DNA of 64,000 bases, taken from Halogeometricum sp. S1BR25-6. GTDB lineage: Archaea; Halobacteriota; Halobacteria; Halobacteriales; Haloferacaceae. Positions 53,945-56,453 of this stretch are shown here, piece by piece (the first letter of the stretch is position 1; the number at the start of each line of letters is the position of its first letter). Location: positions 124,001 to 188,000 of the forward strand of contig NZ_JAMQOP010000004.1 in assembly GCF_031624495.1 (NCBI RefSeq), written 5' to 3'. The notes under the pieces were generated by a model. That model was not told the origin of the DNA. It saw only the letters and a list, made by a program, of their open reading frames with translations, and did no database searches. The position numbers were made by a program, and so were the translations under genes.

Positions 53945-54583
53945 CTACGCACTCCCCTCCAGGACGTCCTCCAGAATCTTCCGCTGCGCGGTGACGAGGT
54001 GCTCGGTGAACGTCGACTGGGAGATACCGAGTTCCGCGGCTATCTCGGTGGCGTTGGCCCCCTTCGGTCGCTCGAAGTACCCCATCCGGTACGCCGTCTC
54101 CAACACCTCGCGCTGTCTGTCGGTGAGTTTCCCCCGGTTGACGAACACCCGTTCTTCGGGCGGCCCCTCCAGCGGCGGTTGGAGGAGACGCTGGACGTCC
54201 ACGTCCTCGAACCGTTCGCCGAGTTCACCCATCACCGTCTGCAACTGCCCGAAGTCCGCCGCGTGGAAGACGAGCGTCAGGTCGCCGTCGTCGGCGACGT
54301 AGCGGTGGACCGGACAGCCGAACCGGCCGAGGCACTCGCAGGGACAGGTCGCGTCGTCCTCGTGGGCGGTCCGAAACACCGTCGCCGTCCCGTAGGAGAA
54401 GACGGCGTCCTCCTCGTCGTCGTCTCCCGGAACCAGGAACTCGGTGACGCTCCCCCTCTCTCCGGGCAACGAGACGCTCGTAGACGTCTGGTCGATGGCT
54501 CCCCCCGCGGACTCGGAACGCCGAGCGATGGGACACCCATTCGGATCGGTGAACTTCACTGTCGCTCGTATTCCGGACGCCAT
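53945..54583 (-). CDS. Bat-type HTH regulator with cysteine cluster
   Basis: Regulator of 212 residues. The C-terminal HTH_10 domain starts near residue 150: TDRQREVLETAYRMGYFERPKGANATEIAAELGISQSTFTEHLVTAQRKI. The N-terminal half contains conserved-looking cysteines, CPIA near 17 and TCPCECLGRFGCPVH near 78-92, able to hold a metal or iron-sulfur centre or to sense redox. Haloarchaeal DmsR-like regulators of anaerobic respiration have a similar arrangement, but assignment to them is inference. An IS element lies about 20 bases upstream of its start, so the native promoter may be altered. Confidence 0.85.
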   Translation of the reverse strand: MASGIRATVKFTDPNGCPIARRSESAGGAIDQTSTSVSLPGERGSVTEFLVPGDDDEEDAVFSYGTATVFRTAHEDDATCPCECLGRFGCPVHRYVADDGDLTLVFHAADFGQLQTVMGELGERFEDVDVQRLLQPPLEGPPEERVFVNRGKLTDRQREVLETAYRMGYFERPKGANATEIAAELGISQSTFTEHLVTAQRKILEDVLEGSA

Positions 54584-54603
54584 CTTAATTCAAGCAGGGA
54601 ATC

Positions 54604-54632
54604 TCGGCCTTCAGGCCGGGAGGAAATGCGAC
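54604..54632 (+). repeat. Hairpin resembling a TnpB-element 3' end
   Basis: CGGCCT (54605-54610) and AGGCCG (54613-54618) form a perfect 6-base stem; the following GGAGGAAATGCGAC matches the right-end GGAGGATGTCAC loosely. It may alternatively act as a terminator for the small gene at 54650-54790. Confidence 0.45.
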
Positions 54633-54649
54633 ATGGTGCTGACCAACCG

Positions 54650-54790
54650 CTACTCGCTGGTCGGGCCGGAATTCAACTCTCGTTGTGCGTGGAGCAGCAT
54701 CCCCTTCCACGTTAGCCCGTGGCGCTTTTTCGTCTCTTTCAGGCTCTCGTACTGGCATTCGTCCTCAAAATCTACCTTGACGTACTTCAT
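54650..54790 (-). CDS. Small ribbon-helix-helix-like protein associated with TnpB element
   Basis: Protein of 46 residues: MKYVKVDFEDECQYESLKE, then TKKRHGLTWKGMLLHAQREL and a short tail. A strand followed by two helices is the pattern of ribbon-helix-helix repressors and of antitoxin-like proteins. It is divergent from tnpB with 63 bases between. A perfect palindrome CTGGTGT-T-ACACCAG (54793-54807) lies between its TATA-like ATAAACATAA and its start, which suggests self-repression. Function in the element (regulator or passenger) is not known. Confidence 0.6.
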   Translation of the reverse strand: MKYVKVDFEDECQYESLKETKKRHGLTWKGMLLHAQRELNSGPTSE

Positions 54791-54792
54791 GT

Positions 54793-54807
54793 CTGGTGTT
54801 ACACCAG
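54793..54807. promoter_or_regulatory. Palindromic operator of the TnpB-associated small gene
   Basis: CTGGTGTTACACCAG, a perfect inverted repeat of seven bases around one central T, three bases before the start codon of the 46-residue gene and about 50 bases before tnpB. Binding would block initiation of the minus-strand transcript. Confidence 0.55.
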
Positions 54808-54853
54808 AGTTATGTTTATGTGTGGCGGTCGGCTATCCAATACTGTGTCCGAG

Positions 54854-56079
54854 ATGGTGACGAAGACGCTACAGGCCACGCTCGCAACGCCCACTACGGG
54901 TAAGGAGCAGCGCCTCCAGCGACTCTTGGACACCTACCGAACCGCACTCCACGACGCCTTCGACAACCGGGCGGATACAATGTCTGCGGTCAACGACGTT
55001 GTGACGCCCTACGACCTGCCGTACCAAGCCAAAGACGCGCTAAATCCTACGTCCCGAAACTCCGCTCGACGTACAACGCCGAGGAGTTAGACGACGAGCA
55101 TCCGCTTCGACTCGTCAATCGGGCCGCGAGGTTCGATTACTCCGACGACCGCGAACACGGATTTGTGTGGCAGGCCCCGCAGCCCGGACGCGGGACGAAC
55201 TTCTGGATTCCGCTCCGTATCAACCCGGAGCAGGAATCGTTGTGGTTCGACCTACTCTCCGAAGACGCGAAAGCGGGCGAACTTCGGTTACAGCAACACC
55301 GCACGTCGTGGGAGTTGCACGTCACCGTCGAATACTCGGTCGAAGCACCGACTGAATCGGACAATCCGACGTACATCGGTTTCGACGTAGGCGAGAGCGC
55401 GTTGATAACGGGCTGTGCCCTCAAACGCGACGTACTACGGAAACCGATGCTCATCAGCGGCAGTCGGGCGCGACACCTCCGCAAAGAGATGTTCACCACA
55501 CTCCGCCGGCTACAATCACGAGACGCCGCCGAGTGGCGCGTAGACGAACGATTCGACCACTACCAGAACGCTCTCACGGATATTGTCGAGAAAGCGTCTC
55601 GGCAAGCCGTCGAATACGCTGATTCCTTCGAGAACCCCGTTATCGTTCTCGAAGACCTGTCGTATATCCGCGAACGGTTGGACTACGGTAAGTTCATGAA
55701 TCGGCGGCTTCATGCATGGGCGTTCGCCCAGCTACAGGGTCGAATTGAGGACAAAGCGACCGAGGCAGAGATTTGCGTTGAGTACGTCAACGCGGCGTAC
55801 ACCTCCCAAACCTGCCACGCTTGCGGTCGTCTCGGTCGTCGGAGTCAGCAAGCGGAGTTTGCGTGTCCGCACGGCGACTGCCACGTCTCGGAGTTCCAAG
55901 CGGATATTAACGCAGCGGCGAACATCGCCGGTCGCGCTAACCCGTGGGGAGAGAGCCTGCCTTGGAAACCGGCAGGCGATGACTCACTACAGGACGGGAG
56001 CGGTCGTGACACCGCCACAGCCCACCGGAAGACGAGCGAGACACCCTCGCAGATGACGCTCTCGGCGTTTTCGGACTGA
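54854..56079 (+). pseudogene. tnpB: tnpB (RNA-guided nuclease family), frameshifted
   Basis: TnpB-type protein interrupted by a frameshift near 55039-55042. The first frame starts at ATG 54854 and ends KDAL; the second frame resumes with KSYVPKLRSTYNAEE one base out. Read across the shift the protein has about 408 residues. The catalytic sites are intact in the second part: Asp in IGFDVGESAL, Glu in VLEDLSYIR and Asp in FQADINAAANI, with the zinc finger CHACG and CPHGDC. A single missing base would explain it. The 5' part alone cannot cleave DNA, so the protein is probably inactive unless the reading error is a sequencing artefact. Confidence 0.85.
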
Positions 56080-56142
56080 AACCTGCCTAACGGATTTCCC
56101 CCGTGTGGGAAGCCCCGCCGTAAACGGCGGGGAGGATGTCAC
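56080..56142 (+). ncRNA. 3' end of the TnpB guide RNA (reRNA/omega-RNA type)
   Basis: The stem CCCCGCCG/CGGCGGGG with TAAA loop at 56113-56132 followed by GAGGATGTCAC is the typical end of the RNA made from the tnpB 3' region. The guide would be the DNA next to the element, here from about 56143. The upstream limit overlaps the tnpB end and is not visible. Confidence 0.55.
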
Positions 56143-56453
56143 GTGTCGTACGCACCGTCCGCGCGGCGCACCTTCATGCTAGCGGTGGCCACCGCCGTCC
56201 ACAGGGAACCGAGTCGCAGTCGGAATACGACTCTGACTGACGACCCGAAATACAATATGGATGAATTGAAATTCAATATATCTAACTAAACAGACATACC
56301 GATTCAGGTTCCGAATGGGGAGAGCTTAATGCGGTAATAACACGTTTTAGAGCCCCTCTGCGTCTCGTCTGAACGTTCGGCGCCATACCATTCTGTTTCG
56401 AGAACTGTCTCGTTCACACAACATTTATATGGGCTGTCATTGATGGTTCGGTC
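56143..56453. other. Intergenic region after the IS element with promoter of the CARDB gene
   Basis: No gene. Strongly AT-rich at 56250-56300, with the perfect inverted repeat ATTGAA-A-TTCAAT at 56265-56277. A TATA-like ATTTATATGG around 56421-56430 lies 24-33 bases before the GTG start at 56454. Confidence 0.4.

Follow-up and report, generated by a model that had tools for sequence, protein, structure and literature searches.

A small ribbon-helix-helix-like gene divergent from tnpB in a haloarchaeal IS1341-group element, and small genes in the same position beside other tnpB genes

The element and its two genes

The window (i.e. the whole stretch of DNA analysed, 64,000 nucleotides of Halogeometricum sp. 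S1BR25-6) contains a tnpB element with the following features.

54584–56142, plus strand: the element, approximate extent, from alignment with a Halogeometricum pallidum copy (L252) at another site
54602–54621, plus strand: left-end subterminal hairpin of IS200/IS605 type (weak sot0042 3′-end match at 54582–54622)
54650–54790, minus strand: 46-aa ribbon-helix-helix (RHH)-like gene (family 1), a 46-codon ORF starting with ATG
54791–54844, between the two genes: divergent promoter region of the small gene and tnpB, 54 nt, with a TATA-like ACATAAA, from conserved spacing
54792–54808, no strand: perfect palindrome of 17 nt (8-bp arms, 1-nt centre), from the sequence
54798–54812, minus strand: TAAC-N7-TAAC direct repeat with 11-bp spacing, candidate operator, from conservation
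54845–56079, plus strand: tnpB, with a one-base frameshift near 55043, from NF040570 and PF07282 matches and comparison with relatives
56113–56132, plus strand: right-end hairpin, where the guide-RNA region probably has its 3′ end (weak HgcC and sot0042 matches)

The 3′ part of tnpB matched NF040570 (126.3 bits, cut-off 100) and the Cas12f1-like TNB domain PF07282 (58.4 bits, cut-off 26.3). The gene started at about 54845 and lay in two pieces, 54845–55090 (within an ORF at 54719–55090) and 55165–56079. The distance between its N- and C-parts was 248 nt in the window versus 249 nt in all 28 relatives with both parts, and the L252 copy had no break at the frameshift site, indicating that the two ORFs were one frameshifted gene.

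A permissive search of the element gave weak matches to the 3′ end of sot0042 at both of its ends, and many relatives had a hairpin in the corresponding position with respect to the small gene. The archaeal RNA family HgcC, which may be related to the guide RNAs of TnpB, was matched below threshold over the tnpB 3′ end (56034–56155; 32.6 bits, gathering 50); a search of the whole window against Rfam at the gathering threshold found nothing. The genome's only match to Y1_Tnp (PF01797) lay outside the element (C3:205045–205392). With a TnpB-family gene, no tnpA inside and subterminal hairpins at both ends, the element is a tnpB-only, IS1341-group member of IS200/IS605. It resembles the haloarchaeal elements of that group in having tnpB, subterminal hairpins and no Y1 tnpA inside, but differs from their descriptions by the divergent RHH-like gene, which is not mentioned in the parts of those descriptions that were available.

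The small gene and its pairing with tnpB

The earlier note had described a 46-residue RHH-like gene facing tnpB, within 54650–56079, a span narrower than the element. The minus-strand ORF at 54650–54790, translated as MKYVKVDFEDECQYESLKETKKRHGLTWKGMLLHAQRELNSGPTSE, is indeed divergent from tnpB, and sequence and structural model (below) agree with that description. Of 392 genomes of the order, 135, representing 58 of 95 genera, had family 1 matches (E ≤1e-3) in a search with its 46 residues. In named genomes, 105 loci were confirmed by a pattern scan; 80 were kept, and the titles of these were haloarchaeal or “archaeon” without exception.

By nucleotide comparison, the median dN/dS of the coding frame was 0.11 in group I_a (45 pairs), 0.18 in group I_b (303 pairs) and 0.05 in group II (916 pairs). 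The ratio exceeded 1 in four of the other five frames; it was 0.12–0.27 in the fifth (anti1), because this antisense frame shares third positions with the coding frame. Residues K21, G25, T27, W28 and G30 were unchanged among 42 diverse members, giving the invariant motif TWxG. Short ORFs are common in the high-GC DNA here, so that a chance open frame overlying a conserved non-coding signal had to be considered, but the low ratios in the coding frame against values above 1 in four others, and the five unchanged residues, make the likelihood of this negligible. The 46-aa gene is therefore genuine and under strong purifying selection; absence of such conservation had been named beforehand as grounds for discarding the idea. 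A few copies looked decayed: L018 and L033 lacked a recognised start, and L249 was split across two frames.

Database searches gave the family no name. The window protein matched no Pfam or NCBIfam family at E ≤1, including NF033496 (DUF2080), and a PDB sequence search found no meaningful relatives (best E 0.91). Searching PHROGs (E ≤0.1) and NCBIfam with the 42 members gave stray matches only, to one or two members, and no phage homologues were found with a protein of the second subgroup as the only query. Family 1 is thus unnamed, and relatives are annotated by RefSeq as hypothetical proteins. The suggestion that the gene is too short for standard annotation held in part. A plasmid homologue with no adjoining tnpB was absent from the annotation of its RefSeq record, and further plasmid matches had no annotated feature (the gene table used was incomplete), but two other RefSeq plasmid records examined did include homologues, named “hypothetical protein” and placed divergently from a “transposase”.

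Homologues were found beside other tnpB genes, as had been proposed. Of the 31 loci that matched the small protein best, 30 had a divergent adjacent tnpB (L031 its N-part only). The exception, L002, came from the same genome as the window (contig C3, around 137880), where the small gene and the left hairpin and end were present and tnpB was missing; this solo left end is likely a deletion remnant in which the reading frame was kept. With a stricter profile, a divergent tnpB was detected at 29 of the 31 best loci, 34 of 40 weaker places, 72 of 80 pattern-scan loci and 9 of 20 places chosen partly for odd contexts, these sets sharing species with one another.

The distance from the start of the small gene to that of the aligned tnpB was 54–55 nt in 29 of the 31 best loci, the other two giving no distance (L002, no tnpB; L018, no recognised small-gene start). 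A second TnpB clade, about 26–34% identical to the first, was also paired with family 1, mostly with about 53 nt between the starts (range 50–71). At L199 and L207 the small-gene unit occurred twice in succession beside tnpB, the second copy reading through an unknown residue; this may be either a tandem duplication or an assembly gap.

The shared promoter region and the predicted fold

The promoter region shared by the two facing genes was conserved in spacing and, in two of three groups, in upstream sequence. After thinning (8 sequences of I_a, 40 of I_b and 24 of II), conservation of the upstream 60 nt was 0.76 versus 0.56 at 4-fold sites in group I_a and 0.71 versus 0.58 in group II; in group I_b it was hardly above these sites (0.64 versus 0.62).

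A perfect 15-base palindrome had been placed over the start site of the small gene. The palindrome is perfect, but it is 17 nt long and lies just 5′ of the gene, ending one base before the ATG. One as good arose in 66 of 20,000 simulated 60-nt stretches of the same composition, and 20 palindromes (some nested) were listed across the window, against a Markov mean of 13.75 (range 8–23); it is thus locally unusual but ordinary for the window. Its sequence, with up to 3 mismatches allowed, occurred once in the window (expected 0.06). Among 10 elements of the MKYV-type subgroup, the full palindrome was present only in the window copy and its 13-nt core in four. Since it was also broken in L252, the closest relative found, the palindrome was rejected as a general operator, and the idea that it co-varies with the protein failed too: within the subgroup the TAAC-N7-TAAC repeat tracks the protein better.

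This repeat lay between the TATA-like box and the start codon in all 14 upstream regions of group I_a, and occurred once in the window (expected 0.14). Conserved positions in group II were CACATAA at about −30 to −24 and TGTG at −11 to −8, and no operator common to groups I_a, I_b and II was found. The strand residues judged by eye to face DNA varied with these sites, being Y-K-D/E with TAAC and E/A-R-E with TGTG; in so few groups, such co-variation of residues and sites is a suggestion. These residues of the window family include an acidic one (D/E7), which is unusual for RHH proteins.

An AlphaFold2 model of the 46-aa protein (42-row alignment, pLDDT 90.1) had an extended start followed by helices at 11–24 and 28–40, no strand being assigned in the lone monomer. 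The top three Foldseek rows were CopG (TM 0.63–0.65), with E values of 2.0–2.8 that make this a resemblance and not a proof. In VIA, CopG (2cpg_B) scored Z 5.3 over 44 aligned residues (rmsd 2.8) and DinJ also Z 5.3, followed by YiiF, CdbA, ParDE, the omega repressor and lastly 2mdv (a “beta alpha alpha” NMR structure); DinJ, YiiF, CdbA, ParDE and the omega repressor are presumably all RHH proteins. Identity to CopG in the structural alignments was 20–24%. All structural Z scores, including those given below, were under 8, and the fold matches are statistically non-significant. The window protein is accordingly only predicted to fold like an RHH monomer, with CopG as its nearest likeness in the PDB.

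CopG, which we take to be the repressor of plasmid pMV158, resembles the window protein in length (45 versus 46 aa) and in strand-helix-helix order, and is its best structural match (PDB 2cpg, 1ea4 and 1b01). Control of a mobile element's own promoter is a further, predicted likeness to CopG and the RHH (MetJ/Arc) superfamily. Unlike these, the window protein matches no curated RHH profile, has the invariant TWxG turn and is encoded beside an archaeal tnpB.

An RHH-like companion with a conserved frame and a conserved shared promoter region makes autorepression and repression of tnpB plausible. The reading that we regard as rather probable is that the small gene encodes a CopG-like RHH protein acting in this way. 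The protein would dimerise, and the dimer would attach to repeats lying after its own gene's TATA box and ahead of the start codon. Bound there, it would repress its own gene and, through the shared region of about 54 bp, the divergent tnpB. Such repression would keep the guided nuclease scarce and the copy number of the element low. A scarce nuclease would fit the low copy numbers and the many tnpA-less tnpB genes of haloarchaea described in the portion of PMC3119063 that was available.

The protein might instead act on transposition, by binding the element ends or controlling a TnpA that works in trans, and not on tnpB. The genome's only Y1 TnpA match lies elsewhere, and at L002 the small gene and left end persist without tnpB, both as this would have it. 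We think it very unlikely, however: the conserved upstream positions sit in the promoter, pairing of the gene with tnpB is near-constant, and L002 may be a deletion remnant.

In many members of the clade the left border of the element was AAGATGG (CCATCTT on the tnpB strand), and from these alignments the left flank CCAT(CTT) is probably the target motif. In the window, the ATG of this border (54580–54586) is the start codon of an ORF on the minus strand (53945–54583), towards which the small gene reads. Insertion before host start codons was considered as a special property of the elements and rejected, as borders were not enriched for starts of ORFs of at least 60 codons (12 of 32, versus 63 of 100 ATGG sites taken as background); as ORFs contain many such sites, the background is lenient and the comparison is weak evidence either way.

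The border bears on another account of the small gene, in which it serves immunity or host control, mainly silencing sibling elements in trans or the adjoining host gene, by read-through among other means. The window element does sit at an ATGG that is the start of a host gene running in the same direction (from 54583 downwards), and the available part of PMC3119063 notes that IS605-type elements are low in copy number in haloarchaea, possibly through stringent control. The lack of enrichment for ORF starts, lenient as its background was, nevertheless speaks against a role at the host gene, and silencing in trans would itself use promoter repression and so overlap with repression of the gene's own promoter and tnpB. 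As a main function we consider it distinctly unlikely.

Relatives of the small protein also occurred away from tnpB. Among 11 such loci, seven encoded two fused units (L232–L235, L067, L068 and L238) and four a single unit (L069 and L241–L243). A model of the two-unit relatives (99–107 aa; pLDDT 88.2, pTM 0.79) had adjacent strands at 11–18 and 23–30 and then four helices. Its best match was 1u9p (permuted single-chain Arc; Z 7.3, 84 aligned, rmsd 3.2, Foldseek E 0.073), presumably a designed protein, and the next were six entries of an F-plasmid relaxosome subunit (Z 4.2–5.3), which we take to be TraY. The two-unit relatives are thus modelled as a naturally occurring, permuted single-chain RHH dimer, a layout shared with these two proteins, and sit in conjugation-like loci, not beside tnpB. 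A divergent ORF for a small membrane protein adjoined 9 of the 11 loci (not L233 or L238); two of these membrane proteins gave nothing useful against Pfam. Weak matches to a TrwB-type ATPase (E 4e-4 to 7e-4, about 20 bits, near the cut-off) were found in eight such genomes, about 8–9 kb from 10 of 12 genes (the other two, G294:C43 and G386:C22, lie near contig ends). Such an arrangement hints at a conjugation-like element under a regulator resembling TraY. Two further solo members (L236 and L251; VKHLTIKFEDE...RGLTWRGVLVEW), with no tnpB found adjoining, had deacetylase-like and dehydrogenase-like neighbours, named by eye, and are possibly domesticated genes or element remnants.

Small genes in the same slot beside other tnpB genes

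The earlier note had further proposed that the gene is a common hidden partner of haloarchaeal TnpB elements. A census was made of 92 TnpB matches in 14 genomes belonging to different genera, sampled from a longer list (29 automatic loci, 60 taken from the list and 3 from other sets). Four genomes were nearly complete, i.e. G000, G003 and G004 with all listed matches and G007 with 7 of 9; outside these, mostly better-scoring matches were included. Family 1 adjoined 5 of the 92 sampled tnpB genes, and 5 of 24 in the four near-complete genomes, where 10 of 24 had a companion of any kind. Since the TnpB clade of the window is low-scoring and the census favoured better scores, 5 of 92 may be an underestimate. 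As a general partner of all haloarchaeal TnpB, family 1 was rejected on this count, and for it the proposal was wrong. It came nearer the truth for the slot itself: at 26 of the 92 genes, the few hundred bases upstream contained a small gene of RHH or AbrB type (family 1, five; family 2, six; family 3, five; family 4, six; family 5, four), the total and the family 4 count including L104, a weak AbrB match (E 1e-3). Searches with these families recognised no companion at the other 66, and such regulation is therefore not obligatory.

A second sample was drawn with the window TnpB as query. It consisted of 70 loci covering 72 of 89 listed matches (of the remainder, 7 were in earlier sets and 10, mostly weak or at contig ends, were left out); L190, with short upstream sequence, was dropped from the companion count, leaving 69. 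Family 1 was present beside all nine TnpBs 83–100% identical to that of the window, patchily at 60–76% and beside none of 23 below 55%. Companions of any family were found as follows.

80–100% identity: 9 of 9, all family 1
70–80% identity: 5 of 13
60–70% identity: 15 of 24, one of them (L202) the gene of a neighbouring element
50–60% identity: 3 of 3
below 50% identity: 0 of 20

Because its presence tracks identity to the window TnpB, family 1 is lineage-bound, with several gains or losses as far as quick trees tell. Many forks in both TnpB trees were unsupported; a length filter removed most of the window's clade from the first, and the second, used there, mixes loci found through TnpB with loci found through the small protein, which are biased towards having it.

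The other families were obtained from clusters of upstream ORFs, many of which were antisense shadows of tnpB; clusters with DNA-binding folds were kept by eye. Family 2 (MRKNITITEEQAEW...INLSSLVRE) was divergent from tnpB in L112, L170 and L193 and on the tnpB strand in L073, L075, L080, L086 and L101. Family 3 (MRPNIDI...LSEAYAEVLEAGL) was divergent at five loci. Proteins of type 3b (VRTEIDMERGGDLHERVKEYAREN...), seen only in the window-TnpB sample, were encoded on the tnpB strand and overlapped the tnpB start; 3b was rejected as a separate family, since the family 3 profile finds it, and is a branch of family 3. Matches below threshold were to CcdA for family 2, TraM for family 3 and a RelB-like protein for 3b; beyond these, assigning families 2 and 3 to the RHH proteins is our reading of their sequences. 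Family 4 was of AbrB/MazE type, above the curated cut-off, and family 5 was DUF2080 (NF033496/PF09853; 67.5 bits, cut-off 22), named transposase-associated protein by NCBI. The DUF2080 gene lay directly upstream of tnpB on the same strand at 4 of the 92 sampled genes. Like the window gene it is a small gene directly upstream of tnpB, but it belongs to another sequence family and reads with tnpB, whereas the window gene is divergent.

RHH-like and AbrB-type families in the slot of other TnpB lineages would be expected if the job of the slot is DNA-binding control. We tentatively put forward, as possible, a modular slot upstream of haloarchaeal tnpB into which different antitoxin-fold DNA-binding proteins have been recruited repeatedly, there to set the dose of the nuclease or block its activity. 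Its members would be three RHH-like families (one with a distinct branch), the AbrB/MazE type and DUF2080, either divergent from tnpB or overlapping or abutting it as in toxin-antitoxin operons.

The same families raise the question of whether the small protein works chiefly by binding the TnpB nuclease and holding it in check, perhaps alongside autorepression, in the manner of type II antitoxins. Companions do resemble antitoxin folds (AbrB/MazE above cut-offs, CcdA and RelB-like below threshold), several lie directly upstream of tnpB or overlap it on the same strand, and the DUF2080 domain is among validated antitoxins in another setting, as far as the available part of PMC10440598 goes. For the window family this is nonetheless unlikely, as it pairs with TnpBs only 26–34% identical and has only about 6 residues after helix 2. 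Antitoxins usually carry a tail for toxin binding.

To our knowledge, control of TnpB, a guided nuclease able to cut host DNA, is poorly understood in tnpA-less elements. Judged by titles and the openings of abstracts, in a literature with few subscription journals, no paper reported a tnpB with a divergent RHH gene. A small repressor that is dedicated to the task, conserved and apparently replaceable would give a direct handle on this control, and the finding would add unnamed RHH families to annotation pipelines. It would also suggest that TnpB elements borrow the regulatory proteins of toxin-antitoxin modules and plasmids. An interchangeable slot would be a more interesting result than family 1 itself and, if true, would help to account for the persistence of many TnpB families at low copy number without tnpA.
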